Shown here piece by piece: positions 1,588 through 52,016 of a DNA stretch of 64,000 nt. Made by a program: the position numbers and the translations under genes. Each line of letters starts with the position of its first letter. The first letter of the stretch is position 1. The stretch is from Cladocopium goreaui. Taxonomy: Eukaryota > Sar > Dinophyceae > Suessiales > Symbiodiniaceae. Below the pieces are notes generated by a model, which saw only the letters and a list, made by a program, of their open reading frames with translations, did not search any database and was not told the DNA's origin. The DNA lies in the NCBI GenBank assembly GCA_947184155.2, contig CAMXCT020001463.1, forward strand, positions 1 through 64,000, given 5' to 3'.

Positions 1588-2805
1588 ATGTCTTCGTTCG
1601 CCGATAGCACTGCACAATTTGAGCAAAGGTTGTCAGATTGCAAGGTCCCTGCCACCCTGAGAACTGCTTTGGAAACGGCAGGTATCACCACCATTTCTAC
1701 GCTTGCTTATTCCTTTGGACAGCCGGGACAGACAATCGATGATGTGAAATTTGCCACGTGGGTCAAGACAATTGATCCGAATGTGACAGTGGGAGCTGTG
1801 GCCACCCTCAAGCGTCTGCTTTTTGAATCTCAAACGCAACTCTTGGCACTTTTGAAAGAGCAAGTCACACAACCCGACAACTTCGTCGCCAAGAAGCTCC
1901 CCCAGGCGGAAAGAGAAATGCGCCTGAACAATTTGAAGACGAGACTTGCTGGCCAAGTAATCGAAGGTGCAACAGAACCCGGACACGGTCTCCTCGACCA
2001 AGCAGTACAAATGCATGAAAAGAACCAGGTGTCCTACATCCCTCCTGAGAAATGCGTCAGCAGACTTCATGAGCTGACGTCTACAAAACAACCCGACAAA
2101 ATTCTGGAGGTGGAATCATCGAAACTCATTGTGAAGGAGCGCGGAGGAGATTTGGAGATCGCTGCACAATCAGCGCTCCAGGTTCAAGAAGCCCTTCGCC
2201 GAAGGGGTTTGGCGCTGGATTTTGCGGACATCTGTTCCTTTGCCATCCACGAGAAGTACATACAAACATTGTTTACACACCTGCACAGGGAGCCCCCAGC
2301 AGGGTTCGCGCGATGCAATGTGTCCCAGCTGGTGAATGCAGACAAAGAAGTTTGGAAGAAGCTCATCCAGGACAATGTCAAGCCTCGACGTGCAATCGAT
2401 GGCACAAAGCCCATTGACAGCAAACTGGATGAAGCCTTGAAGAGCTATGAGGTGTCCTTCATCCTCATGCCATTGCCGAGCAGATCCACACCGAAGACTG
2501 AGACCAAGCCATCGCCGTCCTTTCCCAAGGCCAAGCCGCATGCGGGGCCCAGGCCGCTTGTGAAGCCATCCATCAACAAGCCAAAAGGGAAAGGCAAGGG
2601 AAAAACCAAATGGGAGCCCAGGATCCCACAGCAGATCCGTGACCAAGGAGGCAAGGCCTCTCTTCCTTCAGGCGAGCCAATATGTTTTTCTTACAACATT
2701 GGATCTTGTGACGGCGCTATGGACGGGGCGAAGTGCACGAGAGGGCATCATGTGTGCGCGAAATGTTTTGGGAACCACTCCATGAAGAACCATGGCAAGC
2801 ATTGA
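1588..2805 (+). CDS. YR1 Gag-like nucleic-acid-binding protein
   Basis: This is the putative structural/nucleic-acid-binding protein of YR1. The ATG at 1588 is preferred over the GTG at 1582. The N-terminus (about residues 18-45, LRTALETAGI...AYSFG) resembles the N-termini of the YR3 and, more weakly, YR2 and YR4 Gags. A basic GKGKGKTK stretch precedes a C-terminal CCCH-type finger, C-x7-C...C-x3-H, starting at CFSYNIGSC, followed by HVCAKCFGNH. The ORF ends at UGA 2803-2805 and the same frame stays open into Pol, so a Gag-Pol fusion by readthrough is possible. Assignment as Gag rests on position, the basic tail and the finger; no capsid fold can be shown from sequence alone. Confidence 0.75.
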   Translation: MSSFADSTAQFEQRLSDCKVPATLRTALETAGITTISTLAYSFGQPGQTIDDVKFATWVKTIDPNVTVGAVATLKRLLFESQTQLLALLKEQVTQPDNFVAKKLPQAEREMRLNNLKTRLAGQVIEGATEPGHGLLDQAVQMHEKNQVSYIPPEKCVSRLHELTSTKQPDKILEVESSKLIVKERGGDLEIAAQSALQVQEALRRRGLALDFADICSFAIHEKYIQTLFTHLHREPPAGFARCNVSQLVNADKEVWKKLIQDNVKPRRAIDGTKPIDSKLDEALKSYEVSFILMPLPSRSTPKTETKPSPSFPKAKPHAGPRPLVKPSINKPKGKGKGKTKWEPRIPQQIRDQGGKASLPSGEPICFSYNIGSCDGAMDGAKCTRGHHVCAKCFGNHSMKNHGKH

Positions 2806-2808
2806 CTA
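2803..2808 (+). other. Candidate UGA-CUA readthrough site, YR1 Gag/Pol
   Basis: The Gag stop TGA is followed by CTA, and the frame then remains open to the Pol stop at 5952. UGA-CUA is a known stop-readthrough context in RNA viruses and some cellular genes. Use of readthrough here is inferred. Confidence 0.6.
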
Positions 2809-5800
2809 CAGTCAAAGCCCCAGCGCAATGATGAAACATCGGCCGAAGCGCCGCAATCCAATTCAGTGCCAGTGGCCGAAGAGCCACACAATTTTGCTGC
2901 ATGTAAAGATGACACCATACTGAAGCAGCCTCAGCCTACTGCCCCGTCACAGCCCTTCGTCATTGAGATGTTTGCGGGTTCCGCTCGGGTCACTGCATGC
3001 CTACGTTATCTGGGACTTACGGGCTGCTTTGGAGTGGACCACATTCTCAGTAACAACATTGCAAAAGTAATCACGGCCGATCTTACAACGAGCAGCGGTC
3101 AGTCGCTTTTCTGGCAGTGGATTAAAGCAGATCAATGCTTTGGAGTGTTCGCTGCACCGCCATGCGGTACCTGTAGCCTCGCGCGCAACATCCCAATTCA
3201 AGTGCCGGGCTCCAAACAACGTTCTGGACCTCCACCATTGAGATCTTCATCTTATCCAGATGGATTACCCACATTGACGTGGAGCCAAAGAGCCAGGGTG
3301 GGTGCTGCGAACAAGCTGTATGCATTCCTCACGGAAATCGCACTCTACTGTGTGGAGCACGGGAAGGTCATTTGCATAGAGAACCCCAGAAGTTCCTTGT
3401 ACTGGCTGACCTCTTTTGCCCAGCCGTTGACAAAACTACTCAAGTTTACAGCCCATCAAGCCTGTGCATACGGTGGACAGAGACCCAAGTGGACCGCTTT
3501 GCTCCACAACCATGATGGATTTTTCACCATCTGCAGGACGTGCCCGGGTCAATCCAAGCAGCACATCCACAAGCCATGGGGCTACGACATGGACAAACAG
3601 CAATTTAGCACAAAAGAGGAAGCTGCCTACCCTGTTGACCTGGCCTATGCGATTGCAGGTGTCTTCGCAGCAGTAGCAGTTTCCAAAGGTTGGCTCCCAC
3701 CTGCGGTGCAATTGAGTGAGGGTCCGACTCTGCAGCACTTGCGTGCAGTTACGTCCACCCAACCAAGGGCATCCAAACTGCCACCATTAGTGCCAGAATT
3801 CAAAATCATACATCATCGCAAGCGGCCACTACATGACTCGGACCCTTGCCTGCCAGGTAGTTCACTGCAGTCCAGCTGGCAAGACCTTCCCCCTGGCGCC
3901 AAATATTTGAAACAAACACCAGTACGGACAAACGGGGGGGATATGGCTGATATGGATGACAACGTTCCTCAGAAAGACATGGCCTTCGGGATTTATCACA
4001 CCCCTGAAGAATTTGTTGAAGAAGCGGTGAAAGCTGGTCACCAATCCCAGTGGAGCGCTGTCCTGCCATGCGCTCTTGAAGAAGTTATCGAGTGGAACTT
4101 GAGGAGCACCCCAAAACAGCTGTGCCAAACCATGCTCCAGACCCTCTCGGAATGGTCCGCCCTTGCCAAAGATCTGCAGAAAGAAGAGCGAAACATTCAC
4201 GCAGCCCTTCCAGATCATGCCAGAGTTATTTTGCAAGGGAAACGAATCCTTCTTTGGAAAACCCTTTTGGAGCGCTACAACTACGACGACATGGAAGTGG
4301 TCGATGAGCTCTTGAAGGGAGTTGATCTTGTGGGCTCTGTGGGCCAAGTTCCATCGATGACATCGGCCTTCAAGCCAGCCACCAAATCTGTCGGTGAACT
4401 GAGAGAAGGTGCCAAGGCATCCAGGGATGCGACACTGGCCGGCATGAGAAGTGGGGGTGACGGCGAGATTGATGCCGAAGTATACCGAAAGACCCTGGAT
4501 GAGAAAGCAGATGGCTGGATATGTGGACCCATCAATCAGGAGGACCTTCCTGAACACGCCATCATCAATCGAAGATTCGGCATACGGCAAGGTGACAAAG
4601 TCAGATTGATTGATGATTTTTCTGCTTCAGGGGTGAATGGCTGCGTGCAAGCAGGTGCAGCACCCTATCTCCACACCCTCGATTTCGTAGCAGCGCTTCT
4701 CAGAGAACTCAACATTGGTGATCGCTCGAACAGGTGGCTGGGAAAGACATTCGACCTTGCATCGGCCTACAGACAGATGATTGTTTCAGAAACTTCGGCT
4801 TGGGCTGCGTATATAGCAGTCTACAACCCAAACACCGACAGGGCTGAAATCTATCAAATGAAGGCCTTGCCCTTCGGGGCCACAAAGTCTGTCTATTGCT
4901 TTTTGAGAGTGGCACACTCCCTCTGGTACCTTGGTGCTAAGGGCTTAGGCCTGATTTGGTCGAGTTATTTCGACGACTTTATCTGTCTCTCCCGTGAAAC
5001 TTGTGCTACGATTGTTTCGGGTTGTGTGCAAACCTTCTTCGATCTTTTGGGTTGGAGGGTATCTGGCGGTGACAAAGATCTTCCCTTCAGCGACATCTTC
5101 AAAGCTCTGGGTGTGCAGATATCCCTTGACAACTGGACGAAGGGAATTGTGCTCATGCAAAACACAGAAAAGAGGATTTTGGAGCTCAGCGGTTGCATCG
5201 ACAAAGCGCTGAGGGAGGGCACACTCTCTAGTGCCGCTGCGTTGTCTCTGCGTGGAAGGATGCAGTTTGCAAACTCACAGGTTTGGGGAAGGGCTAGCAA
5301 GATATGTCTCAAGCAGGTGACCCTCCATGCCTACAACAACAATTCAAGCAAGGTTTGTGACGCCTTAGCAGCGGCGCTGTCCACCTTCAGAAAAGTTTTG
5401 AATGCCGGTAAGTCCAAGGAAATCATTTCAGGCACCAACAAGCCCCGGTTTGTTTTTACTGATGCCAGCTTCGAACCTTCCGATGCATCTTGGCCGGCTG
5501 GCGTGGGAGGGGTCTTGTATGATGAGAATGGCAAAGCCCTGCGACACTTCTCATACTGCCTCGACAAAAATGATCTGGCAGTTCTAGGCTTCCCGGAACA
5601 CAAGCAGACTGTGATTTTTGAAGCGGAGCTCATTGCAGTCATCGTTGCAGTCAAACTTTGGAAGAACGACTTGTTGGACAGACCTGTTGTGATCTTTGTT
5701 GACAACAACAGTGCAAGAGATGTTGCAGTTTCTGGATCGGCGAGAACCGTAACACCTCTGAAACTCGTCAACCTTTTGCTCACACTGGAGGATGAGCTCT

Positions 5801-5952
5801 CCATCATCCCTTGGTATGCTAGAGTGCCTTCCAAGTCGAACCCTGCAGATGAGCCATCCAGAAGTGACAAAGAGATCGAATCCCTTGGACAAAGAGCTGT
5901 GAAGAGTGAGGTTGAAGCTGCGGTCCAGTTCATTCTTTCATGCATCAATTAA
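2806..5952 (+). CDS. YR1 Pol: MTase-like module, reverse transcriptase, RNase H
   Basis: Numbering from 2866, an MTase-like module spans about residues 30-230: motif I-like VIEMFAGSARVTACL (about 31), motif IV-like PPCGTC (about 97) and motif VI-like ENPRSSLYW (about 171). The RT follows, with FDLASAYRQ (about 629), LPFGAT, and the catalytic YFDD (about 700). RNase H follows, with FVFTDASF (about 862), FEAELIAV, FVDNNSA (about 943) and NPADEPSR (about 991). No protease or DDE integrase is seen, consistent with YR-mediated integration. No Met is seen just after the Gag UGA, and the in-frame start at 2866 is GTG, so expression as a Gag-Pol extension is likely. Classical DIRS elements carry a different methylase-like domain after RNase H; here it precedes RT. 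Confidence 0.88.
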   Translation, partial: LQSKPQRNDETSAEAPQSNSVPVAEEPHNFAACKDDTILKQPQPTAPSQPFVIEMFAGSARVTACLRYLGLTGCFGVDHILSNNIAKVITADLTTSSGQSLFWQWIKADQCFGVFAAPPCGTCSLARNIPIQVPGSKQRSGPPPLRSSSYPDGLPTLTWSQRARVGAANKLYAFLTEIALYCVEHGKVICIENPRSSLYWLTSFAQPLTKLLKFTAHQACAYGGQRPKWTALLHNHDGFFTICRTCPGQSKQHIHKPWGYDMDKQQFSTKEEAAYPVDLAYAIAGVFAAVAVSKGWLPPAVQLSEGPTLQHLRAVTSTQPRASKLPPLVPEFKIIHHRKRPLHDSDPCLPGSSLQSSWQDLPPGAKYLKQTPVRTNGGDMADMDDNVPQKDMAFGIYHTPEEFVEEAVKAGHQSQWSAVLPCALEEVIEWNLRSTPKQLCQTMLQTLSEWSALAKDLQKEERNIHAALPDHARVILQGKRILLWKTLLERYNYDDMEVVDELLKGVDLVGSVGQVPSMTSAFKPATKSVGELREGAKASRDATLAGMRSGGDGEIDAEVYRKTLDEKADGWICGPINQEDLPEHAIINRRFGIRQGDKVRLIDDFSASGVNGCVQAGAAPYLHTLDFVAALLRELNIGDRSNRWLGKTFDLASAYRQMIVSETSAWAAYIAVYNPNTDRAEIYQMKALPFGATKSVYCFLRVAHSLWYLGAKGLGLIWSSYFDDFICLSRETCATIVSGCVQTFFDLLGWRVSGGDKDLPFSDIFKALGVQISLDNWTKGIVLMQNTEKRILELSGCIDKALREGTLSSAAALSLRGRMQFANSQVWGRASKICLKQVTLHAYNNNSSKVCDALAAALSTFRKVLNAGKSKEIISGTNKPRFVFTDASFEPSDASWPAGVGGVLYDENGKALRHFSYCLDKNDLAVLGFPEHKQTVIFEAELIAVIVAVKLWKNDLLDRPVVIFVDNNSARDVAVSGSARTVTPLKLVNLLLTLEDELSIIPWYARVPSKSNPADEPSRSDKEIESLGQRAVKSEVEAAVQFILSCIN

Positions 5953-6003: not shown

Positions 6004-6349
6004 GGGGTCAATTGGATCCAGCCATTCAATTTGGTTTTTGACAAATTTTCCTGTGCAATGCATTGGATGTGCAACCCGGTGCATCATCCCTGCTGTGATA
6101 TAAGTGTTCAGCGTGGCGAGGAGAAGACCACGTACTTGCTAGCCCATCGTGTTAAAAAAGGTGTGCTGCGATTCACTCCACCGCTCCTGCTGAATGAACA
6201 TGTTCATTAATGCAGTTCCACTAAGAACGATTGTGACACGTAAAACGAGCCAACAAGTTAACAACATTTCCTTACGTTGCCTTGCGTAAAATACTGTTAC
6301 ACTTGACGACTAGATGTGGTGGCGACGCGTTTTTCTAAGTTGAACTTAA
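6004..6349 (+). repeat. YR1 split direct repeat B1
   Basis: This 346-bp sequence begins GGGGTCAATTGG and ends TTGAACTTAA. It is repeated almost identically at 7314-7659 and joined directly to A2 at 6350. A B1-A2 junction like this is what circularised YR-element DNA would carry. Confidence 0.9.
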
Positions 6350-6710
6350 GTTTACTGTCAGCCCTCTGATAGTACTTTAAGTTCCTCTTAGAAACAAGAT
6401 GTTGAAAACATCTTGAGCGTTCATACTCCGTCTATCGTCTTGTGTTTCAGTTATCGTCAAAAAGAAACTACGCCTGTACGGTGGCGATCAACAAACATGT
6501 TGCCAAAACCTAACAACCTGAACAACAGTGATGTCATGGCCAAATTGATGCAGTGTCTTGTTGGTGGCTTGTTTGTCGCATGCTTGCACATCCATCCATT
6601 TGCATTCGTGCTATTTTGGCTAGTGCCCACACACAAGAGCATTTTTGACCTGGTAGATCCGTGAACCTTGCTCGTGGGTTTTTTCCCTTTTGTTTTTCAC
6701 CCACCCACCC
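6350..6710 (+). repeat. YR1 probable A2 repeat
   Basis: This is assigned by analogy with YR2-YR4, in which A2 follows B1 directly; its partner A1 lies left of the window, so its right limit is estimated. It contains a 9-bp perfect hairpin (6395-6403 with 6407-6415). It ends near a CCCACCCACCC run, the same motif that follows A2 in the other three elements. Confidence 0.55.
6395..6415 (+). other. Hairpin in YR1 A2
   Basis: A perfect inverted repeat has a 9-bp stem CAAGATGTT and a 3-nt loop. YR2 and YR3 have similar hairpins near the start of their A repeats. Confidence 0.6.
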
Positions 6711-6725
6711 ATCCCTTGGGTGGCT

Positions 6726-7271
6726 ATGCCAACCATGATTAACACAATGACATTGCTCCTGGTGGTGCTACATTTTCTTCGAGCATCCGTTGCTTCAGCC
6801 CCAACGGACGATGACTACCGGACCGGCTCTATATTGGCCATAGAGGACATCTGTATGTGCTTGCACGCCATCATCGACAGAGTAGGTGCCCCTATTCACT
6901 TGCAGTCCCTTTACACTCTTTGGTCTGCTTGTTCAAAAGCATTGGCAATTTTGGAGACGGAGTTGTTCCCAGGATGTGAGCCGTCCATTCCCTCTGAGAT
7001 TCACATGCCGGCCATACCACTCAAGCTTACAACCTTGAAACAACAAGCATGGGCCCAGCACAGACCCTTGATTTGGCCAGCTCACGACGGCTTACAGCGC
7101 TTCAAAGCTTGGTTTGGCACCTTTTATGATCTGCAGTTGCACCAAGACAATCTTGACATTCTGAATGACTCTCTGTTGATTCTCGAGTCTATCGCCGACA
7201 TTTGTGACACGCCCATTCGACAACCTAGTGCCGCTGGTCAAGATTGTACAGTCCTTCAAGACACATCTTGA
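6726..7271 (+). CDS. Small ORF in YR1 linker, signal-peptide-like N-terminus
   Basis: I do not recognise this protein. It lies between A2 and B2, where YR2 and YR3 have only 19-51 bp. From the ATG at 6726 it begins MPTMINTM followed by a hydrophobic stretch (TLLLVVLHFL) and ASVASAP, which resembles a cleavable signal peptide. About 155 more residues follow, with no recognisable domain. It may be a passenger sequence picked up by the element, or a chance ORF. The frame is also open upstream to 6690 through non-ATG codons. It is followed by a pyrimidine-rich stretch and CAG immediately before B2. Confidence 0.4.
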   Translation: MPTMINTMTLLLVVLHFLRASVASAPTDDDYRTGSILAIEDICMCLHAIIDRVGAPIHLQSLYTLWSACSKALAILETELFPGCEPSIPSEIHMPAIPLKLTTLKQQAWAQHRPLIWPAHDGLQRFKAWFGTFYDLQLHQDNLDILNDSLLILESIADICDTPIRQPSAAGQDCTVLQDTS

Positions 7272-7313
7272 GGACACCTTAGCGCTGTCTGCTCCTTTCA
7301 TTTTTTCCTGGCA

Positions 7314-7659
7314 GGGGTCAATTGGATCCAGCCATTCAATTTGGTTTTTGACAAATTTTCCTGTGCAATGCATTGGATGTGCAACCCCGTGCATCATCCC
7401 TGCTGTGATATAAGTGTTCAGCGTGGCGAGGAGAAGACCACGTACTTGCTAGCCCATCGTGTTAAAAAAGGTGTGCTGCGATTCACTCCACCGCTCCTGC
7501 TGAATGAACATGTTCATTAATGCAATTCCACTAAGAACGATCGTGACACGTAAAACGAGCCAACAAGTTAACAACATTTCCTTACGTTGCCTTGCGTAAA
7601 ATACTGTTACACTTGACGACTAGATGTGGTGGCGACGCGTTTTTCTAAGTTGAACTTAA
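7314..7659 (+). repeat. YR1 split direct repeat B2 (right end)
   Basis: This is the second 346-bp B copy and marks the right end of YR1. Its last bases TTAA are followed by AACCATAG of the interrupted helicase gene. It is preceded by a pyrimidine tract and CAG, so the linker/B2 boundary looks like a splice acceptor. Confidence 0.9.
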
Positions 7660-12900: not shown

Positions 12901-13186
12901 GTGATGAGGTAAACAGTCTGGAATGATAGGAACTCAGCAGCTTGGCTGACGACCCAGCGATAAAGGCTGTGCCAATTAGGTCCCGGTGCAACCTCCACAC
13001 CATTCACTACCCTGATCTCATAGTCGTGCCTATCAGGTTCACCAGACTTCTTGTGGGGGTCTCCAAATCGCCACTGGTGATGGACAGTCTGGTTCAAACC
13101 ATACTCAGTGGAAATATCTTTATACAGACCCAGCGCTTCCAACAGTCTATGGCCAGAAGGACCAGGCACAACACCCGAGGGAAGCG
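9925..13186 (-). pseudogene. Large protein: glycosyltransferase-like and alpha/beta-hydrolase-like regions
   Basis: The minus-strand frame is open from the YR2 edge (13186) to the candidate intron. Numbering from the GTG at 13169, about residues 70-185 resemble a nucleotide-sugar glycosyltransferase core, with a DxD-type motif in NFALIDSDCMPVTLFE. A Ser/Pro-rich, low-complexity stretch follows. About residues 820-900 contain a GxSxG nucleophile elbow, VLGFSAGSYTGLAIHEVL, then HCLEDRLCVW, suggesting an alpha/beta hydrolase. No in-frame ATG occurs near the start, and the frame reads straight across the YR2 insertion point once YR2 is removed, so the true start is in or beyond 21989-22402. Marked as pseudogene because YR1 and YR2 interrupt it. 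Enzymatic activity is not shown. Confidence 0.55.
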
Positions 13187-13640
13187 GGGTGGATTAGTCC
13201 ATCGAAGTGGGACAGCTAGGGAGGGAGTACCGTCTTAAGGGTGCTGTTGATGTATTCAACAGCACCCGTCTTGTCTGGGAAAGTATTTCCCCTAGGTATC
13301 GTCGACGCAACTCGTTGGGTCAACAATCGTGTTAACAAACCCGTTGACAAACACACCTGTGTTGTTTCGTGTTTGTCAGACAACAACAGGGAATGTACTT
13401 TCCTGAAAACTTATCTTCTTTGGGTTTCTTCCCAATTTGTTGAGTGAAAGTATTTCACTTGACGGGGAATGATTTCTTGAAGGGAAAGCATTTCCCAATC
13501 CCACCTATTTGGGAGTTTGTTTTCCTAAGTAGGATATTACGGTGAATGTACTTCACCAGAGTAAGTATGGTTTTGTGGGTAAGAAAGTATGTGTGATGTC
13601 AGCCACCGCTGGCTCACAGGGGGCCTTCAAAGAAAGGTCT
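13187..13640 (+). repeat. YR2 split direct repeat A1 (left end)
   Basis: This 454-bp sequence is repeated at 21223-21684. It contains a perfect 12-bp hairpin (13239-13250 with 13256-13267) near its left end. It probably holds the promoter and recombination end, which is inferred from position. Confidence 0.9.
13239..13267 (+). other. 12-bp hairpin in YR2 A1
   Basis: The stem GGGTGCTGTTGA pairs with TCAACAGCACCC across a 5-nt loop. It is repeated in A2 (about 21275-21303). Confidence 0.75.
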
Positions 13641-13683
13641 GTGGGGGGGGTGCGCCCAATGCAGTTGGGCATCGTGTGACGCG

Positions 13684-16017: not shown

Positions 16018-16529
16018 GAGTAAAATGGGGGCGAGAAAGAGACTCCATTGGGGTGGAGCCATGAGGTCCTTGCACAACAGCCGTGGGGAGGGACGTGGTT
16101 GTTTAACCAAGTGAAGTCCCAGTGAACCCCAAGTGAAGGCTGCTTGACAAACCGGGAGGGGTCAAGCACTGATCCCAGGGAACCGGGCAAGCGTTGTAAG
16201 CTTGCGGAGACAGAGCAAGCGTTGCAAGCTTGCGGCGACAGAGAACCTGGCAATGTACTTGCCGGGGTGTCAGCTGGTAGGACCTGCCGAGGGATTGTCC
16301 GGGAAGTGTTGTGACACAAAGCACTTGTGTCGATGCAGACCTGTTGGGTCAAGCAACACGTTGGCAAGGGCGGCAGAACCAGCTTTGTGTTGTTTATTTG
16401 TGTAACAGTTTACACGAGGGCAACAAGCATCACGGGAGCTTCAATGGTTGGGGCGTTGGACACCTCATGCAGAAGGGGTTCATGACTTTTGACTAGGGAA
16501 CGTATATCCCTTAGGGACCCGTCGGAGCC
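16018..16529 (+). other. YR2 spacer between recombinase and Gag
   Basis: This 512-base non-coding spacer has two near copies of a GCAAGCGTTG(T/C)AAGCTTGCGG unit (about 16187-16237), each internally palindromic around AAGCTT. The rest shows no recognisable gene. The repeats could fold in RNA and may affect expression of the downstream Gag; that is speculation. Confidence 0.6.
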
Positions 16530-17786
16530 ATGCCGATGCTTGTGCTGACGGAGGATCAGTCGAGGGCAGCGATGGATGCTGCGGACTCGGACCTGAAATA
16601 CCTCCTCACAGAGGTAGGGGTCGCTGAAGAGGTCCAAGCGGCCTTGTATCACCGGGGTTTCACTACCCTGAGACTTTTCTCAGGGATCGACGAGTCCAGG
16701 GCGGAGGTGAGGACCGCGATCAATGCAGAGATCGGCCTCGACCATGCGGCAGGTAATGCCGAAAGGCGCAACACGGCCCTGCTGCTCAGCGCCTGGGAAA
16801 CAGCTAGGACCCAGCAGAGGTCGAATGATGAGAACAGGGCAGAAGCCAGGGTGGCGATGGTGCCGCGTCCAGTCCCGGGCAACGAGCATGCCATGCTCCG
16901 GGAAGCTCTTGAGGCCCAGATCGGCCGACTGAGGGACTATGAGGTGCCAGCCAAGAGCCTCATAGCGGCCAAGCTGGACGACATCGAGTCCAATATGCCA
17001 AAGCTGGAAGACCTGCGTGACGTGGCATCGGTGGAAGATGGTGAAGCGGACCTCCTACAAGGGAGCTTGGACGCCGCGACGGGGACTTTCAAGATGAAAG
17101 CGGCCAGGAATGCCATCACGATGCCCAAGACCGCAGAGGAGCTACGCCTACGCCACCGACGTATTGGGCTGGCATGGGAGATGGCCCGTACAAAGCATAG
17201 AAACCGGGTCTGGCTCCAGGGCGGCTTGGTGGAGGCATATCGCCATTTGAGCGATCATGTGCTTGGAAAGCACGTCTACGGGCTACAGCTTCCTCACGAA
17301 CAACGACCCAAATGGGAGCTGATACTCAGTTATGAGCAAGAGGTCAGGAAGAGGGCCTATCAACTCCTCAGGAGGGGAGACGAGCCCACGTTGGAGGAGG
17401 CCATGAAGAAGGCCATCGGGGACCCGGAGACGATGAACCTCCACTTCGTGGTGCCGCTGACGACGAGCCTTGCGTCGAGCTCTAGCAGTGGAGCTCGGGC
17501 TACGAGTGCATCAGCCAAACCAGGGGCAGCAGGCCCGTCCGGCGGCAACAAAGGCGCCAAAGGCGGCGGACGCAACGCCAAGCCGGTGAAGAAACTCCAG
17601 GTGAAGACCCCTGATGGAAGGCCGTTATGCTTTAAGTATAACAATAACAACAAGTGCTCGGCCAAGAACTGCAACTTCGTTCACCAATGCCAGCGATGTT
17701 TGGGTAACCACCCCAAGTCCTCCTGCAACGCACTGAAAGGTGACACAGCCAGGGGCGGTACAACGCCCGCAGGAGGAGGTAACTGA
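16530..17786 (+). CDS. YR2 Gag-like protein
   Basis: The protein is 418 aa from the ATG at 16530. The N-terminal segment VQAALYHRGFTTLRLF is weakly similar to those of the other YR Gags. Basic, Gly-rich sequence (GGNKGAKGGGRNAK) precedes a CCCH-type finger beginning CFKYNNNNKCSAKNC with a following His, and then CQRCLGNH. It ends at UGA 17784-17786, in frame with Pol, which is open immediately after the stop. The putative role is packaging element RNA. Confidence 0.75.
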   Translation: MPMLVLTEDQSRAAMDAADSDLKYLLTEVGVAEEVQAALYHRGFTTLRLFSGIDESRAEVRTAINAEIGLDHAAGNAERRNTALLLSAWETARTQQRSNDENRAEARVAMVPRPVPGNEHAMLREALEAQIGRLRDYEVPAKSLIAAKLDDIESNMPKLEDLRDVASVEDGEADLLQGSLDAATGTFKMKAARNAITMPKTAEELRLRHRRIGLAWEMARTKHRNRVWLQGGLVEAYRHLSDHVLGKHVYGLQLPHEQRPKWELILSYEQEVRKRAYQLLRRGDEPTLEEAMKKAIGDPETMNLHFVVPLTTSLASSSSSGARATSASAKPGAAGPSGGNKGAKGGGRNAKPVKKLQVKTPDGRPLCFKYNNNNKCSAKNCNFVHQCQRCLGNHPKSSCNALKGDTARGGTTPAGGGN

Positions 17787-17789
17787 GAT
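17784..17789 (+). other. In-frame UGA between YR2 Gag and Pol
   Basis: TGA is followed by GAT, with the same open frame on both sides. It lacks the CUA context of YR1 and YR4. Confidence 0.5.
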
Positions 17790-43683: not shown

Positions 43684-44595
43684 GATCCCTGTCTTCATGG
43701 CCATTGCACGGACATCTGGATGAATATGACACGGCGCCATGTCAACTACTAGGAAAACTGATCTCTCGGCCATGCACTCTTCTAAGGATTTGCAAAGCAC
43801 CTGGATGTACCTTTGCATGACCTGTCTGTTGTTCCAGGCGCTACTCTCCCTCCAGAGTATGATGTTGTGGGGCAAGAAACCTTTGGCCTGCCTAAGCAAT
43901 CGGAGTGAAAACCTGTGCGTGTTTCCAAGTAAGATCTGAGGGAGCTTGCTGTTCAGGCCAAGTAGGTCACGTTGCCCCTGCGGTCACTCAAGCGTGATCG
44001 ATCAGCTGGCCGCAAAGAAGACAATGGCTGGGTTCGCAGAACTGTCCCGACACCGCCGCCTACATGGTAAGCCAAGCTGGCTTCATCCATGTTAATGATC
44101 AAAGGCTCCTTCTCAGCAGCAGCTATAGCAGCGTTGATCCAACGAAAATACGTTGTTGCCTGCAACAAAACAAGCCCAAGGACCCTGTTTAAAAGCCTTA
44201 ATTTTGACCCCAAAATGGCGTCAACCAGGCGGACGTCAAAAGGAAGCCCCACCAGGTGGGCCCCAAAACCAACCCCATATAGCCAAGCCAAAACTGGTCG
44301 AAACATGCCATGATGAAAAAGCGCTCCAAATTTGGGCCAAAAAAAAGGACCCCAAAACGGGGTCAAAAACAGTTACCTAATTTTGGGCCCAAAAACCAAC
44401 CCCCAAATTTGGCTCATCCAGAACAGGAAAAATCATTACGGAAAACGCCGATGGGACTGGTTCCGCCCCCTCCCAAAAAAGATACATGTGTGGAAGAACA
44501 CTGCACGGCGCCTTCTCTTGCAGCTCCGCTTGCGACATGGTGGTTGCAACACGCAGCTTGCCCAATCTCGCGCCCCACTTCCGGCGAAAGTTTTG
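43684..44595 (-). pseudogene. DDE transposase, central catalytic part with one likely intron
   Basis: On the minus strand, the first exon segment (44595-44440) continues the N-terminal piece at 53260 in frame once YR4 is removed. After a probable intron (44439-44160) the next segment encodes YFRWINAAIAA and the first catalytic Asp in LIINMDEASLAYH (about 44090). A one-base shift at about 43960 precedes LLRQAKGFLPHN, then WNNRQVM and the second Asp in VFLVVDMAPCHIHPD (about 43745). The order fits Tc1/mariner/IS630-like DDE transposases. It stops at the Copia A insertion. Frameshift and insertions make it inactive. Confidence 0.65.
44160..44439 (-). other. Probable 280-nt intron in DDE transposase gene
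   Basis: The donor TTCC|GTAATG and the acceptor TTTTGTTGCAG| join PSAFS to ATTYFRW in frame on the minus strand. The interior is rich in GGGGTC/CCAAAA words and has no conserved coding sense. Confidence 0.55.
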
Positions 44596-44722
44596 TTTAA
44601 CGTACTTGTTTCGTTTATGTTTTACGGGGTACTTTCAGATCTTTGTTTCCCCTGAAACATTTTGGCTCAAGCTGGACTTCAATCTTCTTTGCGTTTATAG
44701 CCTGGGGATATTCTAAAAAAAA
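44596..44722 (+). repeat. YR4 split direct repeat A1 (left end)
   Basis: About 127 bp, repeated at 52390-52515. It contains CATTTTGGCTCAAG (44658-44671), identical to the last 14 nt of the dinoflagellate spliced leader; the A2 copy has one change. Confidence 0.88.
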
Positions 44723-45113
44723 CAATGCAAACAACAAATGCAAACAACACAGGCTACAACATTACCAAATGCTGCGTTCACTCATTTTCCCAATTTTTCT
44801 TCATGGCTGTGGGTTGCACTAGTTTTGTCTGAATCGGGGTTTTGATTGCTTTCTAGGAAGTTTTTCCATCATTGACCCGGCCGTCCGGGGCGTGCCATGT
44901 GGCATTTGCGTCTCAGGGAGCCTGTTTGGACCGAAATCTTTGCATCACCTGTCAGGGCAGAATTGTGCACACTCATTTTGTCGTATTTGTACGATCAACA
45001 GGCTGAATCCCATTTCTTACCCCGAGATATTTGGCGTTTTTGTTGGTGTTCTTACGGTATTTACCGTTTTGCACGGCGTTTCAGAGAGATCGATACACCG
45101 TCAGTGGCAGACG

Positions 45114-47066
45114 ATGAGACCCCAGACTAGCATGGATGATGGTTGGGACCTTATCCCATTCGAATCAGCGACTCCGTTTGTGCAACCGACAGCCAAAGCA
45201 ACTCCACGGAGTAGACCAGAATTTGTGGTGCAACCGAGATTTCCTGTTTCCCTAAGGGTTCCAGGTTCCGACATGCCAACATTGCCCAGGCCACCAAATT
45301 CAGGTCCAAAGCTCACTGTGGCGAACTTATCAGATGCTGTGCCCCAAGGGCGTCCTCTTTTTTCACCAGTTCGGAATTCACTGTTACACCATGTTTCACA
45401 TGATGATTCACCATATGCAAGGTTTCACAGGGTTAGTTACCAACCCACCAATTTACAGATGCAGTCCAATGCAACCTCCACTTTGGAGTCAGCGCCCCAA
45501 CAACCATCGGTGCCAGCCTTATGTCCTAGTACAGCGGAAGCATTGCCATGCCCACCATTAACTCAGGGTAAGGTTGGATCACACCGTTCAAAACCAGCAC
45601 GGAGCTCAACTGCCATGCAATTGACTAGATCTAAATTTGCCAGCGACAATGTTTTCCTGGTCGACCAATTTACAACGTTGTTGGGACTATTTGGGACATT
45701 TTCCGATGTATACCAGACACTGTCATCATCTCCATATGCGGATGAACATCGCAAGAGACTGCTCAACAATTATGCAGCCACCACAGCATGCCGATACATG
45801 CAAGCTGTCCTGAAGTTCGTCCGGGTGACATCGCAACTTGGATTCGATGTCCATCATTTGTCAGAAGCTCAACTTGCAGATACCCTCACAGTGATGCAAT
45901 TATCCAGAACTAGTGACACAGACCGGGATGTCTGTTCAGGGAATTTCACAATCAAAGCACTGAGATGGTGGCACAAAATTGCAGGAGTTAGAAACCTCCA
46001 AATTTGTTTTTCACCCCTGGTGGACAGCTTCCTGAAGACAAAACTGAGCAAGGACAGGCGTGAAGCCCCGCCACTCCCGCTGTGGCTGGTTTTCCAGTGG
46101 GAACGGCGTATCCTACAGAGCGCATCAACAATGTACGAAATTATGATGTTGGGCTCGTTTTTAGTCATCATTTGGGCAGGCTTGAGGTTCGCTGACGCAC
46201 AACGTATGAATGCTGATTCCTTGGTGTTCAATTTTCAGGAATTACGTGGCCTGGTATGGCGATCAAAGACTATGGCAGCCGGACATCCTTTTGGAGTTCA
46301 AGCCTCAGGACTATGCAGTTTCAGCAGCCATACCTGGCTATTCAAATTTTTGCAGACATGGGACACTTTGATGCATGACCTACAGATGCCACGGTCAAGG
46401 GTGGATTTTCTGATTCCATCGATGTCTCCAGATGGTACCTTCCCGGTTTTTGAACCTTTGGATTATGCAGGCACAACTAGGGTGTTCCGAGATATGTTGC
46501 TGACACCGTGGAAGCACTTTGAGGGGGAACACCCACTGGCACATTTACAACAGATGTATACGCTGCATTCCATGAAAGCGACCTTGTTGAGCTTTGGCCC
46601 ACAACTGGGCTCTTTGGTCAGCGACTCAGACCGCCTCCTTCAAGGTCACCACCAAGATCCAAAACATTCATTAAATTTATACGGAAGAGACAGCGTATGG
46701 GGCTCACTTCGTTACCAGGCTACGGTGATTCAGGAAATTCAAAAAGGCTGGAGACCTAAAACTGCGCAGCACCGTGGCGGCCAGTTCCCTTTGGCTGAAC
46801 CAGTGGTGACCTTAGAAAGGTTCAAAAAAAATCAGCACCGGACTACCAGTTCAAGTGGCTTTCTTTTTCTGGCCAAGATGAGCCTATTGAAATTCCATCC
46901 AAACCAGATGTGGAATCGATTGCGTCGGACACGGACACCAGTAGCAGCAGCAGTCAGAGTGACAGCTCAGACTCAGAGGAAGGGGCACCTGGCCCCAAAA
47001 AAGTTGCACCAGCACAGGAGGCCTACCAAGCAGATGAGGCAGTGTATGCAAAACATCGCCGGGTAA
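45114..47066 (+). CDS. YR4 tyrosine recombinase (frameshifted near C-terminus)
   Basis: The frame is open from 44892, but the ATG at 45114 (MRPQTSMDDGWD) is a better start. A Pro/Ser-rich N-terminus precedes the core: a first Arg in AGLRFADAQ (about residue 355), WRSKTMA, a His in HSMKATLLSF (about 484) and GHHQDPKHS followed by the probable nucleophile Tyr in NLYGRD (about 522). At an A8 run (46824-46831) the reading frame slips. The other frame continues with a Ser/Asp-rich linker and the conserved LH/CG/CxxxxC tail up to 47257, so one A was probably lost. Confidence 0.8.
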   Translation: MRPQTSMDDGWDLIPFESATPFVQPTAKATPRSRPEFVVQPRFPVSLRVPGSDMPTLPRPPNSGPKLTVANLSDAVPQGRPLFSPVRNSLLHHVSHDDSPYARFHRVSYQPTNLQMQSNATSTLESAPQQPSVPALCPSTAEALPCPPLTQGKVGSHRSKPARSSTAMQLTRSKFASDNVFLVDQFTTLLGLFGTFSDVYQTLSSSPYADEHRKRLLNNYAATTACRYMQAVLKFVRVTSQLGFDVHHLSEAQLADTLTVMQLSRTSDTDRDVCSGNFTIKALRWWHKIAGVRNLQICFSPLVDSFLKTKLSKDRREAPPLPLWLVFQWERRILQSASTMYEIMMLGSFLVIIWAGLRFADAQRMNADSLVFNFQELRGLVWRSKTMAAGHPFGVQASGLCSFSSHTWLFKFLQTWDTLMHDLQMPRSRVDFLIPSMSPDGTFPVFEPLDYAGTTRVFRDMLLTPWKHFEGEHPLAHLQQMYTLHSMKATLLSFGPQLGSLVSDSDRLLQGHHQDPKHSLNLYGRDSVWGSLRYQATVIQEIQKGWRPKTAQHRGGQFPLAEPVVTLERFKKNQHRTTSSSGFLFLAKMSLLKFHPNQMWNRLRRTRTPVAAAVRVTAQTQRKGHLAPKKLHQHRRPTKQMRQCMQNIAG

Positions 47067-47257
47067 CACATGCCATGCTGGCAGTGGTGGATGATGTTAC
47101 CACCAGACCATTTTACATGGACCACTACTGGAAAGCTGCGTGTGGAGCCCGAATGCTTCATTCAGAAACAGAATTTCTTGAGACCCTGACACCTCCAATC
47201 ATGTTTTGCCAACATGCCGGATGTAAGAAAATATGGACATCAGTCCAGCTGAGTTGA
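46824..47257 (+). pseudogene. YR4 recombinase C-terminal tail in shifted frame
   Basis: The frame after the A8 run encodes an acidic Ser-rich stretch, then YWKAACGARMLH and MFCQHAGCKKIW, the counterpart of the putative zinc-binding tail of YR1-YR3. A one-base change at the homopolymer would join it to the main ORF. Confidence 0.7.
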
Positions 47258-47645
47258 ATCATTTACCATGGCCATTCCTGGACAAAAATAGCCAGCGTGC
47301 AGCAGCTTGTTTGGAACAATCAACATGACCTATCAGCATCTCATGGCGTTCAGTTGCATCAGAATCAGTCACAGTTTTGCGTCATTTGCGTTTTTTTTCA
47401 CATGTGATACTCAGGTTCAAACCTTGTCTATATATCCGCAGCCATTTCAAAAAAAAAACCCTTTGCAAAAAAAAAAAAAACAAATGAAAACCGTATCCTT
47501 CAGGCAATTATTGATCGCTCGAAGGGTGCCGCACTCAGTGATATGCAAATCCACTCACACCGTTTACCACATGGTACAGGAGTTTGTAACTGTTTTTAAA
47601 TGGTTTTTCAAGGTTGGTATTTCAATTCCAATTCAGCGTTGCGTG
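47258..47645 (+). other. YR4 spacer between recombinase and Gag
   Basis: These 388 bases include two A-rich runs (about 47448-47482). The Gag frame is open upstream through them, but no conserved sequence is seen before the ATG at 47646. Confidence 0.55.
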
Positions 47646-48854
47646 ATGACTTCCAAAACATCGGAAGATGCCATGTCGGCATGTGGAGTGGATCCATCCA
47701 TAGCGTCGCAACTGATCCAAATGGGTTGGACGGTTCAGTCATTTACGTGTGCAGCATTGGATATGCACGAACTGGAAAAATTGTGGCCAGAATTGTTTCC
47801 AGCTGAAGAACTTGGGTTATTGCAAAAAGCCTCTTTGAGGGCGGCGTTCAAGATGTGTCAAGAAATCACCCAACCCAGCGTTGCAATGCCAGCACCTGTC
47901 AGTGCTCCATCAGCTTCCGATGCGTTGTCTAGTGCAGGCACATGGGCAGAAAGCTTCCCACCGAAGTTGGATGCAGCTTTGATCGAACAAATGAAGGCAA
48001 AATTCTTGGCTAGTTATCCCTCAGAGTTGGTGAACCACGACACGATGCCCAGCACTAGACTCCTCAGCCTTATACACCATCAGCTGGCAAAGAAACAATG
48101 GGCGTGGATTCCTTGGAAATACCGCCTCACGTTGGCGAAAGCTGAGGAGGTGACATCACAACTGCAGTCCAAGATGCCAAAGTTGGAAGTGGCTACCCTG
48201 CACAACCTCCTAGTAGATGAGCCCCCATGCATAGACATATCCAACTCAGGGTTTGGTGTGAATGCAGTCCGAAATTTACTTGCAGTACATGACATGGCAG
48301 TCGCAATGTGTGGGGGAGCTCATTTAGCAAACCTCAAAGCGTACTCTGCAAAATTTCTCAGTTACCTGACACAACGGGGGGACCCAGAGAGCATGTTGAG
48401 ATGTGCTTCAATCACGGAGGCCCAGGCAGCTGACCGCCAAATTTGGGCTTCCGTAGCTGACCTGATGTCAGAGCGTGGTTGGGATATGGACAATTGTTTG
48501 CATGAGTTCACACATATCCGACATGACTTGCCAGGTCTGTTACAGCTCCGTCCTCGCCCAGCAAAGGTACCTTCGATGCCATCACAGCCCAGCTTCCAGA
48601 GCCCAAGCAAGGGCAAAGGCAAAGGTAAACCCTCCAAAGGGAAAGGCAAGTCTAAGGGAAAAGGAAAAGTGCAATGGTTGACCGATGTGAAGACCAAGGA
48701 AGGTCAATGGAAACAGCTATGCATGCGTTTTCAGACGGGCAATTGTTCATTGGGCGATTCTTGCAGATTTCAGCACAGCTGTGCGTATCCTGTCAACGGC
48801 CAGGCGTGTGGGTTGGATCATGGAGCTCTTCAACATCAGAATACAACCCACTGA
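47646..48854 (+). CDS. YR4 Gag-like protein
   Basis: The start ATG at 47646 gives an N-terminus (DPSIASQLIQMGWTVQSFTCAALD) placed like those of the other YR Gags. A highly basic GKGKGKPSKGKGKSKGKGK run (about residues 315-335) precedes a CCCH-type finger: CMRFQTGNC, then C and H in SLGDSCRFQHSC. It ends at UGA 48852-48854 followed by CUAG, with Pol in the same open frame. Confidence 0.75.
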   Translation: MTSKTSEDAMSACGVDPSIASQLIQMGWTVQSFTCAALDMHELEKLWPELFPAEELGLLQKASLRAAFKMCQEITQPSVAMPAPVSAPSASDALSSAGTWAESFPPKLDAALIEQMKAKFLASYPSELVNHDTMPSTRLLSLIHHQLAKKQWAWIPWKYRLTLAKAEEVTSQLQSKMPKLEVATLHNLLVDEPPCIDISNSGFGVNAVRNLLAVHDMAVAMCGGAHLANLKAYSAKFLSYLTQRGDPESMLRCASITEAQAADRQIWASVADLMSERGWDMDNCLHEFTHIRHDLPGLLQLRPRPAKVPSMPSQPSFQSPSKGKGKGKPSKGKGKSKGKGKVQWLTDVKTKEGQWKQLCMRFQTGNCSLGDSCRFQHSCAYPVNGQACGLDHGALQHQNTTH

Positions 48855-48858
48855 CTAG
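48852..48858 (+). other. Candidate UGA-CUAG readthrough site, YR4 Gag/Pol
   Basis: TGACTAG is the strongest known short readthrough context. Pol is open in the same frame directly after it. Confidence 0.65.
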
Positions 48859-51800
48859 GACAACCAGTCCAACCACATCACCATCCAGACGATGCCCAAG
48901 GTACGGTGGATGTCAACAACCCTCCAGAGGAACCTCCTGAGGAGGATACACATGCCAGTTTGGCTACTGGAGACAAACAAGTTTCACAGGTTTCATCCCC
49001 ACAAGGTTCACCTGCGTTGCCTGATTTCAACCAAGGCAATGCCAAGATATTCTTGGATATATGCTCAGGAGCTACACGTCCTTTGAGTTCAGCCATTTTG
49101 GCACAACAAGGCAATGTTTTGGCTTTTGATATTCTTTTGGATGCGCGTATGGATTTGTTAAATGATCAGAGTTATGAACAACTCCTACGAGTTTGCTCCT
49201 CGGGCCAAGTATCTTATGGTGCGGCTTCTCCATCATGTGCACATTATTCTCGGTTGAAATTACATCGCCCAGGCCCCAAGGCCTTACGGACACCAGATGC
49301 ATTACAAGGAGTCCCAGGACTGAGTAGCCAGGAGCTCCTTCAGGTCCAGGAGTCATATATGATGCTTTCCAGATGTACTATTTGCTTAACTTTGATTTAC
49401 CAAGCAGGCGGCCACTGTCACCTTGAGCAACCTCCAACCGCTATGAGTTGGTTGGAGGAATGCGTCCAATCATTTTTGGTTTTAATTTCAGCATGGTGTA
49501 CGGTGATCTCAGCTTGTGAGTATGGCAAGAGTTGGTACAAACAATGGATGTTTGCAAGTAGCTGGAGTAAGATCTCAACTTTGGGTTGCCTATGCTCCCA
49601 TCCACCAGGGAGCCACACTTCACTGGTGGGTATGCGTTCAGACACAGGCGAATTTTTGAGCCGTCAAACTGCATGCTATCCTGAGGCACTGGCCACAGCT
49701 TTTGCTAACATTGTTGCTCCACTGGTAAATCAACAATATCATGACTGGCAATGGGATGAGATTCATGCGATTCCCCCCAAAAAAGACTTGTATCAAGCAC
49801 CTTATGGCCAAGAAGATGGGGGAGGCCTTCCCTCCAATCCGGATTGGAGTTTGGGGGACAGAACGGAGCCTGATGTCTTTCAACACTTGCGACGACGATG
49901 GATGACACGCATTGTGGAGTCGCGATTGGACAAAATTTTGGTTCAATATTTTTCCCAAGAAGACCATTCTCATCCACCTTTTTCGGAAGAGGTCTTGGCC
50001 CCCTTTCGCAAGGATTTGGAAGAGTTCCTCCATGGCGCCGGTTTGACAGCCAATTGGCAAATTCGACCTCATCAACCTATGTGCTTGGATATCTTACACT
50101 GTTTGAGTAAACTGATGCACGATCCAGATCAAACGCTTTTTCCATCACTCATTGCCGGAGTGGGCACTGGATTTCAACATGATATACCTTTGAGCAATTG
50201 TTTTCCAATCAACAATGATGATGCTGAACATGAACCCCCCTTGTCCGCTCACCACTGTAACTGGCAGAGCGCAGATGATGACCCCACACTCACACGTGCA
50301 CTGGTGCAACAAGAAATCGACAAGGGGTGGGTTTATGAATTTGATGGAGATTTGCAAGATGCACAGCAACGATATCCTCTTGGCGTTGCCCTAGGCAAAT
50401 TAGGCATTGCACACTCGGAAGGCAGGGCACCAAGACTCGTCCTTGACCAGACAATATGCGGCCTCAACGGGCGCTGCAAAATACCTGAGCGGAGCACCCT
50501 GCCATCCGCAAAGGATGTGCTGCGTACATTCCCGATTAGAAACTTCTCTGGTGATCATATGGGATTTTCGCTTGACATTAAATCTGCTCACAAAAGAATA
50601 GTGGTACGTGAAGAAGAACATGGACTTCTCGGCTTCACTCTCCAAGGCAGGTTGTACTTTTACAAAGTAGCTCCTTTCGGAGCCACCTTCTCGGCGGCAT
50701 GGTGGTCCAGACTCGGCGGATGGATGCTGAGGTTCTTCCACTTTTTTATTTGGTGGACACACATCGCCCTGCTCTACGTTGATGACTACTTGTTCATCCA
50801 ATCCTTGTTTAGCATGCCACTATCAGCTACAATGATTTGTCTAATGAGTCAAATAACAAATATCCCTGTCTCTTGGCAGAAATGCGAATTGGCGTTCAGC
50901 ATACAATGGATCGGGTGGAAGATTCACTTGCGTTCTGGCTTCATTGAGATTCCGGCCGCCAAGATCAAAAAATTTCAAGATTATCTCCGATCCATGGGAC
51001 GTAGTTCCCGCACCTCCAAGCGAAATTTGGAAAAATTGATTGGGCTTGCACTCTGGTTAACTCAACTTTGGCCCTACATGCGAATTTGGATACGACACTG
51101 GTACCATGATTTATATTTAATTCCTGCAACTCACTACAGCATTGACAATGGGGACTGGCGATTATTTCCAACACACTTGGATTCCCAACTGAAGATTCTT
51201 TCTCGTCCTCAAGGTACTGCATTACCAATTGGAGGTCAACTCTTGGCAGTTCGACATCAAAGTGTACACACCAAGGATGATTTGGCGAAAGTACACTTAT
51301 CCAATAAGCGTATCTGGCTTCGAATCCGAGATCCTTCTTCGACCAAACGTATTTTATCTTCAGCAAGCACCAGAATCATTCAACATTTTCAACAATGGGT
51401 GTCCGGGTTATCTCCAATGAAACCTCTTACACCTAAAGCATATTGGCCAGGATATGCTGCTGCGGATGCTTGTGCTTCTGGCACTACATGTGGGATTGGC
51501 GGTTTCGTACAGTCAACTGACGGTACAGTTTACTGGTTTTCTGAAATTTATTCCCATTCCGAATTTGCCGCTTTGGACGTGGAATTAGACCAAGACATGC
51601 AACGTTCTATTTCTGCTTTTGAAACTCTTGCTCAGATTGCATTATTATTTGTAACTGCCAGATTTTTTCCTGCTCACCGGATGCCAATATGCTTGAAAAG
51701 CCTCAGCGACAACAGTGGTGCGGAATCAGGCAGTAATAAACTTTGGAGCATGGCCTATCCTTTATCAATTTTTTTGGAACGGATGTGTCTGTTATCCGCT

Positions 51801-52016
51801 ACACTGGGCATCGAAATTGATGTGAGTCACATTCCAGGTTCACAGAATGTGATAGCTGACGACCTCAGCCGATGGGACCAGACCGGTCCAACACCCCATT
51901 CATTTCAATTGCAAGACCGCATCCGTATCCCGTTGCCAGCGTTGTGGAACATCAGTAGATCTCCAACTCTAGTACCAGCAGAAGCCTCAATTCCTTGGAC
52001 ATTGCCCAACTCCTGA
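48855..52016 (+). CDS. YR4 Pol: MTase-like module, reverse transcriptase, RNase H
   Basis: Numbering from 48906, the module has IFLDICSGATRPLSS (about 49), ASPSCAHYSRLK (about 107), LEQPPTAMSW (about 173) and CEYGKSWYKQW (about 200). It lacks the PPC proline-cysteine pair (SPSC instead), so if it is a methyltransferase fold it may be degenerate. The RT has LDIKSAHKRI (about 555), APFGATFS and YVDDYLFI (about 624). RNase H has YAAADACASG (about 851), SDNSGAESG (about 933) and IPGSQNVIADDLSRWD (about 972). It is related to the other YR Pols but distant. Confidence 0.85.
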   Translation, partial: LGQPVQPHHHPDDAQGTVDVNNPPEEPPEEDTHASLATGDKQVSQVSSPQGSPALPDFNQGNAKIFLDICSGATRPLSSAILAQQGNVLAFDILLDARMDLLNDQSYEQLLRVCSSGQVSYGAASPSCAHYSRLKLHRPGPKALRTPDALQGVPGLSSQELLQVQESYMMLSRCTICLTLIYQAGGHCHLEQPPTAMSWLEECVQSFLVLISAWCTVISACEYGKSWYKQWMFASSWSKISTLGCLCSHPPGSHTSLVGMRSDTGEFLSRQTACYPEALATAFANIVAPLVNQQYHDWQWDEIHAIPPKKDLYQAPYGQEDGGGLPSNPDWSLGDRTEPDVFQHLRRRWMTRIVESRLDKILVQYFSQEDHSHPPFSEEVLAPFRKDLEEFLHGAGLTANWQIRPHQPMCLDILHCLSKLMHDPDQTLFPSLIAGVGTGFQHDIPLSNCFPINNDDAEHEPPLSAHHCNWQSADDDPTLTRALVQQEIDKGWVYEFDGDLQDAQQRYPLGVALGKLGIAHSEGRAPRLVLDQTICGLNGRCKIPERSTLPSAKDVLRTFPIRNFSGDHMGFSLDIKSAHKRIVVREEEHGLLGFTLQGRLYFYKVAPFGATFSAAWWSRLGGWMLRFFHFFIWWTHIALLYVDDYLFIQSLFSMPLSATMICLMSQITNIPVSWQKCELAFSIQWIGWKIHLRSGFIEIPAAKIKKFQDYLRSMGRSSRTSKRNLEKLIGLALWLTQLWPYMRIWIRHWYHDLYLIPATHYSIDNGDWRLFPTHLDSQLKILSRPQGTALPIGGQLLAVRHQSVHTKDDLAKVHLSNKRIWLRIRDPSSTKRILSSASTRIIQHFQQWVSGLSPMKPLTPKAYWPGYAAADACASGTTCGIGGFVQSTDGTVYWFSEIYSHSEFAALDVELDQDMQRSISAFETLAQIALLFVTARFFPAHRMPICLKSLSDNSGAESGSNKLWSMAYPLSIFLERMCLLSATLGIEIDVSHIPGSQNVIADDLSRWDQTGPTPHSFQLQDRIRIPLPALWNISRSPTLVPAEASIPWTLPNS

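Follow-up and report, generated by a model that had tools for sequence, protein, structure and literature searches.

We have analysed a 64,000-nt stretch of the Cladocopium goreaui genome (assembly GCA_947184155.2, contig CAMXCT020001463.1, positions 1 to 64,000 of the forward strand; hereafter the window), which holds four tyrosine recombinase (YR) retroelements, E1 to E4. All of them lie on the plus strand in the order YR frame, Gag and Pol, and in each a single in-frame UGA separates Gag from Pol. In E1, Gag (1588..2802) is followed by a UGA at 2803..2805, then CUACA, and by a Pol with methyltransferase-like, reverse transcriptase (RT) and RNase H domains (2806..5952). The corresponding Gag, UGA and Pol are at 16530..17783, 17784..17786 (then GAU) and 17787..20918 in E2, and at 29966..31174, 31175..31177 (then CAA) and 31178..34522 in E3. 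For E4, the Gag open frame spans 47292..48851, with its start codon not fixed and a CCCH finger recognised by Pfam; its UGA, followed by CUAG, is at 48852..48854 and its Pol at 48855..52016. The YR frames occupy 3..1268 (E1), 13684..16017 (E2), 26800..29097 (E3) and 44892..47066 (E4). This gene order, seen throughout 3-52016, differs from the Gag-Pol-YR order with which the group is usually described.

Self-comparison reveals complete split direct repeats, arranged as A1-genes-B1-A2-B2, in three of the elements: E2 (13184..21988; A1 13184-13640, B1 20938-21222, A2 21220-21684, B2 21704-21988), E3, which sits inside a Copia copy (26743..35287; A1 26743-26961, B1 34470-34746, A2 34741-34959, B2 35011-35287), and E4 (44595..53259; A1 44595-44721, B1 52104-52389, A2 52389-52515, B2 52981-53259). 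E1 is partial, its start lying outside the window, and it shows a 3' repeat region at 6004..7659 with B repeats at 6004-6349 and 7314-7659.

The residues R, K, HxxR/K, H/W and Y, which we take to be the tyrosine recombinase motif and by which the YR frames are assigned, can be aligned across all four frames (in E1 as R, K, HxxK, H and Y). The YR frames have no profile match in Pfam and none in PDB, and profile support is thin, with one relative, P0170, matching a PHROG integrase family at 0.0014. In Pol, RVT_1 matches E1 at 5.1e-5, together with RNase H at 0.0027, and E4 at 1.5e-5, all below Pfam's own cut-off; the values for E2 and E3 are 0.075 and 0.072. Among 40 alignment members, two of which are window elements, 16 show RVT_1 at E <=0.01. 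The Pols of the elements are 20-31% identical to that of E1. All four open with a methyltransferase-like domain (2806-3705 in E1) carrying PPC/ENP-type motifs, presumably those of a methyltransferase. This domain is nearly invisible to Pfam: PF00145 (C5 cytosine methyltransferase) appears only in E2, weakly at 0.034, and is not listed for 43 E1-type members at E <=3. An identity as Ngaro was considered and rejected: Ngaro elements are without a methyltransferase domain, whereas each of the Pols here starts with a methyltransferase-like one.

An earlier model-made reading of the letters alone (the sequence-only reading) had reported a TGA at 2803, 17784, 31175 and 48852, with Pol in the Gag frame and open from the next base. 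We have verified this for all four elements. The open codons before and after the UGA number 410/1048 in E1, 423/1043 in E2, 411/1114 in E3 and 520/1053 in E4, and each Gag-Pol has exactly one stop, the flanking frames being stop-free by definition of an open frame. Since UGA likewise terminates six of the eight other frames (the YR and Pol ends of E1-E4), the use of UGA in all four elements is by itself little informative; for the same reason, UGA is not simply reassigned as a sense codon in these elements. The YR, Gag and Pol frames sum to 8628 codons, with the E1 YR frame clipped by the window edge. As to position, Gag stops just past a zinc-finger-like motif, and four stops placed at random, one per Gag-Pol, would all land in the spacer that runs from the final cysteine of Gag to the methyltransferase motif with a probability of roughly 5e-6. 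As to context, the elements read UGA-CUA-C (E1), UGA-GAU (E2), UGA-CAA (E3) and UGA-CUA-G (E4), and the presence of CUA in two of the four has p ~2-4e-4. The UGA-CUA of E1 and E4 and the CUAG of E4 had also been pointed out in the sequence-only reading; this holds, and UGA-CUAG is found in the distant E1-group loci L048 and L052 as well.

We have searched the host assembly (1.17 Gb) for further copies and families of E1 and E3, locating the stops by translation through Gag, with UGA not required. The search retrieved 52 loci, of which 38 were tallied (L009 coincides with the window E3); with E2 and E4 of the window, this gives 40 junctions. Omitted were loci at the same places as others (L025, L028, L034, L035, L038), a near copy of L026 (L027), two with the same UGA context and an unalignable Pol start (L016, L017), a frame-shifted copy (L022), two with Pol only (L029, L033), and three with no junction found, where the Gag match ends earlier (L039, L049, L050). 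UGA is present at the junction in 40/40, and the next nucleotide is C in 39/40, the exception being E2. Gag and Pol are in one frame across 38 of the 40 junctions. The two exceptions, L011, which has lost 2 nt between its UGA and the methyltransferase, and L031, whose frame is shifted, are both decayed, as are L005 and L019 among others; the identities of L005 (83%) and L011 (73%) take in stretches beyond where the copies stop matching.

At closer range, whole-query E1 copies (n=8, window included) and close E3 copies (n=4) keep the UGA in 12/12. Both TGACTACA, at the E1 stop, and UGACUACA are retained in 8/8 E1 copies, window included, and six of the eight have no other stop or frameshift over the 3913 nt compared. 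At longer range, the UGA is at the same place in 15/15 distant E3-group loci with a readable junction, and at the same place and in the same frame in 11/11 distant E1-group loci. The codon that follows is more variable. UGA-CUA occurs in E1 (8/8 copies), E4 and 5/11 distant E1-group loci, and neither CUA nor CGG follows in E2, the E3 group (0/19) and the other 6/11 distant E1-group loci. One locus, L026, has an additional TAA five codons 5' of its UGA. We have also observed four E3-group pieces (L020, L029, L030, L032) within ~30 kb of contig C2713, three of them sharing one junction, which would fit a local duplication or an array.

Coding constraint was then compared on the two sides of the stop. 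For E1, the 54 codons from the UGA to the methyltransferase motif have a dN/dS of 0.44 in five copies (L001, L005-L008; the near-identical L002-L004 were dropped), compared with 0.037 for 300 Gag codons and 0.11 for 240 methyltransferase codons, the last without L005. For the E3 group, the first 20 post-stop codons have a dN/dS of 0.71 over 15 distinct junctions, which remain for the dN/dS, third-position and structure counts once L026 and identical rows are excluded. Synonymous divergence in this group is 0.37 in the 20 codons past the stop vs 0.67 in the 20 before, so the constraint after the UGA acts in part at the nucleotide level. The E3-group peptide behind the stop mostly retains P-T-[EG]-x...K-x-R-K ahead of the first AUG. 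As for start codons in the window, the first AUG of Pol lies within the first methyltransferase strand in E1 and E2 and beyond it in E4; in the Pol of E3, residues 49, 51 and 66 are encoded by in-frame AUGs. In nine relatives from the E3 group, Pol first shows an AUG between residues 26 and 52, and in four of eight E1 copies at residue 38 or 39. Taken together, the dN/dS, the kept peptide and the AUG positions point to translation of the codons directly past the UGA in Gag's frame. In addition, basic clusters resembling nuclear signals (KRK, KKRR, K.RK) appear in the first 20 post-UGA codons of the E3 group and of L040-L052. They are present in 22/95 called linkers, against a shuffle mean of 6.3 and maximum of 14 (500 shuffles), which is a lead only; among the window elements, such a cluster is visible by eye in E3 alone.

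The nucleotide constraint in the E3 group is accompanied by RNA pairing. In the 15 distinct junctions, third codon positions are invariant at 6/20 codons after the stop vs 1/20 before. RNAalifold gives a stem-loop from +10 to +63 past the UGA (31187..31240 in E3, found by comparison of copies, the first pair being 10 nt past the UGA after a 9-nt spacer), and its base is present in the own lowest-energy fold of 13 of 16 distinct loci; L020 and L031 favour a variant of it and L026 is without the motif. Because copies from the same genome lack independence, the shuffle counts here should not be read as probabilities: 8/18 pairs show two-sided change (3/500 shuffles as high), two-sided cells number 30 vs 9.0 shuffled (0/500 as high), and 95.6% of cells are paired vs 84.1% shuffled (0/500 as high), with slid registers reaching at most 53.7%. 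A covariance model, searched against the window and 44/52 loci, gave 24 strong hits, namely the window E3 and 23 E3-group loci.

A smaller E3-group hairpin of four pairs (31173..31186) holds the UGA in its 5' arm and also covaries, with 96.7% of cells paired and eight two-sided cells. Its pairs with two-sided change are no more than in shuffles (367/500), and a small number of events, or even a single one, may account for the changes. For E1, too, it is possible to draw a hairpin whose 5' arm contains the UGA; since L005, L006 and L007 break pairs in it, it is not claimed. Single-sequence folding is less telling, and the E3-group stem came to light only when copies were compared. Folding energy over 81-nt windows around the UGA gives z of -0.99, 0.35, -1.42 and -1.99 for E1-E4, the 100 nt past the UGA of E4 reach -2.85, and for five distant E1-group loci no distinct structure is apparent 3' of the UGA (z 0.15, -0.27, -1.81, -1.12, 0.74).

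Protein databases supply a further view of the junction. We have collected 199 proteins, of which 190 match Pol, 26 match Gag and 22 match both; the named relatives are from Symbiodinium, Cladocopium, Durusdinium and Effrenium. No relatives were found in scans of IMG/VR, GTDB genomes and plasmids, or in PDB sequence searches. Four fusions from ENA contigs (P0100, P0126, P0137, P0190), aligned by eye, read straight over the junction. In three of them (P0100, P0126, P0137) a Trp is at the stop's place or at most about two residues from it, and the tails of P0100 (15/262) and P0137 (7/56) are Trp-rich, as if a code with UGA as Trp had been used in their translation, to judge from the proteins. 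A fifth such fusion, P0183, crosses the stop's place in apparently another frame, and in L022 a frame shift around the stop likewise leads past it in a different frame. Eukaryote gene models bridge the junction at differing points. As a separate observation, P0071, P0072, P0074 and P0075 carry ~150 extra residues ahead of the methyltransferase, which in our view resemble a 2-oxoglutarate oxygenase.

How could Pol be expressed from behind a conserved stop? One possibility is that splicing excises a short in-frame segment with the UGA, Pol then coming from a spliced message. Public gene models of relatives do span the junction with introns (e.g. P0125, P0135, P0185-P0189; their spliced status is deduced from the source). 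However, P0187 and P0188, which show no difference ahead of the junction in the part compared, join at different points of the zinc-finger region and resemble the work of predictors jumping a stop. Moreover, both the protein sequence and the RNA pairing are conserved around the UGA, and in Symbiodinium >90% of the methyltransferase genes, namely those located in retrotransposons, lack introns according to PMC5890265. Splicing is thus improbable. A separate start of Pol, by reinitiation or at an internal AUG past the UGA, would be compatible with the in-frame AUGs of E3 and the early ones in the nine E3-group relatives and four E1 copies. On the other hand, the first AUG is placed inside the first methyltransferase strand in E1 and E2 and past it in E4, the peptide ahead of the AUGs is somewhat constrained, and the sharing of Gag's frame in 38/40 junctions is not needed by a separate start. 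We consider this slightly less probable even than splicing.

Two other explanations concern the stop itself. Dinoflagellates use selenoproteins, so that the UGA might be read as selenocysteine, or else as a sense codon in the host. Against this, Gag ends here just past its zinc-finger-like motif, UGA also closes most of the Pol and YR frames (6/8), and no Rfam family, SECIS being among these families, reaches the gathering score in the window; we give the idea hardly any credence. The stops might also be inactivating mutations of dead copies, and some loci are indeed decayed (L005, L011, L019, L031). Yet the same codon is at the same place in 40/40 even though the Pols are so diverged from that of E1 (20-31% identity), and each window Gag-Pol has a single stop, which leaves a negligible chance for this explanation.

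We therefore consider it very probable, judging from sequence comparison, that these mobile YR retrotransposons produce their Gag-Pol polyprotein through programmed readthrough of a single UGA. The majority of ribosomes would halt at the UGA and release Gag, and a minority would insert an amino acid there and continue, yielding a fusion of Gag with the methyltransferase-like domain, RT and RNase H. How leaky the stop is would depend on signals like those of viral type II readthrough. These are UGA-CUA(G) in E1 and E4 as well as in several relatives; in the E3 group, UGA-C is combined with the extended stem-loop that begins 9 nt farther on. Conservation of the UGA, of the frame and of the following C is seen directly, as are the amino-acid constraint and the RNA pairing; ribosomal readthrough itself, its rate and the decoding tRNA are what we infer. 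The sequence-only reading had proposed readthrough Gag-Pol as a family-wide feature, and the UGA in 40/40 junctions, the shared frame in 38/40 and the covarying stem-loop of the E3 group support it at the level of sequence. It had named unrelated frames, multiple stops or a separately initiated Pol as evidence to the contrary: the host copies show the frame and stop counts just given, and in the window Pols of E1, E2 and E4 the first conserved strand has no AUG ahead of it. The dN/dS comparison that it had suggested for the junction reveals amino-acid constraint directly after the UGA in E1 and a weak one in the E3 group.

Several points weigh against readthrough. E2 and E4 are represented by the window copy alone, and the UGA-GAU of E2 is not a known readthrough context. 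The dN/dS of 0.71 in the E3 group is a weak coding signal confounded by nucleotide constraint, and its structural statistics come from the non-independent copies mentioned above. The covariance model found nothing above noise in E1, E2, E4 and the distant E1-group loci, and a stem-loop near the UGA is unsupported in E1, E2 and E4, in which 16, 39 and 30 of 40 shuffles, respectively, do as well as the best domain; E3's own domain is equalled by 4/40. Over the 100 nt past the UGA, folding energy is no better than in shuffles for E1 (z -0.03), E2 (-0.16) and E3 itself (-0.12). P0190 carries Gln and shows no stop around the position of the UGA, unless it was translated with a code in which UAG is Gln. 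Finally, Tca2 of Candida, a Copia-type retrotransposon, resembles our elements in having a UGA between gag and pol. Its gag-UGA-pol flanks gave no readthrough in yeast, according to PMC2194720.

The elements share features with several known systems and differ from each of them. As in E1-E4, the Gag and Pol of gammaretroviruses lie in one frame with one stop between them, in their case a UAG that is read through with a compact pseudoknot, and a downstream structure is found in the E3 group as well; unlike these viruses, our junctions have UGA (40/40), and a stem-loop takes the place of the pseudoknot (pseudoknots were not searched for). In viral type II readthrough, as described in PMC3542737, UGAC is leaky and the signal is UGA-CGG or UGA-CUA, often with an extended stem-loop ~8 nt downstream; it occurs in alphaviruses, for coltivirus VP9' and in tobraviruses, often as a replicase extension. 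The UGA-CUA of E1, E4 and relatives and the E3-group extended stem-loop 9 nt past the stop are alike to it. The differences are that the present case belongs to retrotransposons, that the E3 group combines UGA-C and a stem-loop with neither CUA nor CGG, and that the CUA of E1 and E4 is not accompanied by a supported stem-loop. UGA-CUAG, the context of E4, L048 and L052, gives readthrough in mammalian genes as shown with reporters (PMC4132726), though those cases are cellular genes.

The nearest described relatives are the SymbioDIRS elements, reported in PMC5890265 as dinoflagellate elements with A-coding-B-A-B repeats, a methyltransferase in Pol, a separate YR frame and shuffled YR/Pol order. 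E1-E4 share with them the dinoflagellate host, the split repeats, the separate YR frame and the shuffled order of YR and Pol. A methyltransferase-like domain lies within Pol here too, though Pfam hardly recognises it. Neither gag nor readthrough occurs as a word in the searched text of that paper. No gag-pol stop-codon or readthrough passage was found in the YR-retrotransposon papers PMC8547959, PMC3266345, PMC3783388, PMC6681497, PMC4157794, PMC9210276 or PMC5890265. Among the matches listed for readthrough in the YR, DIRS, Ngaro, retrotransposon and dinoflagellate literature there is no such report; the founding DIRS and Ngaro papers were outside this scope, and an earlier mention is possible. 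Gag-stop readthrough in YR retroelements is, to our knowledge, not known.

The window also offers a glimpse of how E3 has integrated. It contains two Copia copies, 94.8% identical and distinguished by frame-breaking indels; one of them carries E3 and the other keeps the empty site (57608-57613). The integration core is AATTGA in the target or empty site and AGTTGA at the element's B1/A2; after insertion, the left end reads AGTTGA (26743-26748) and the right end AATTGA (35282-35287), and E3 has no target duplication. Since a 6-bp core without target duplication is present, the ends suggest the pattern expected from a tyrosine recombinase crossover, as seen for this one element. Elsewhere, the interval 7607-13193, from the end of E1 to the start of E2, is taken up on the minus strand by two long overlapping frames which measure 1137 and 771 aa, counted from the first start codon of each. 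No match was obtained for the first; the second weakly matches an AAA helicase. At 23336-23694, in the stretch separating E2 from the Copia copy, there are short tandem repeats spaced by 22 and 25 bp.

More tentatively, and with the odds somewhat against it, UGA readthrough may be ancestral and general in dinoflagellate methyltransferase-bearing YR retrotransposons, the elements having exchanged one modular signal, UGA-CUA(G) or UGA-C plus stem-loop, for the other; the E3-group UGA hairpin might then switch between translation and packaging, and the tail gained by readthrough would start with a basic, nuclear-signal-like segment found only on Gag-Pol. Quite apart from this, if the conserved UGA with either the CUA motif or the covarying stem-loop is read through, programmed readthrough would be extended to the order of YR retrotransposons, and one genome would hold a natural series of readthrough signals. 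It would also account for the breaks and mis-splicing that gene predictors introduce into these elements, and would open a direct route to testing termination leakiness in dinoflagellates.

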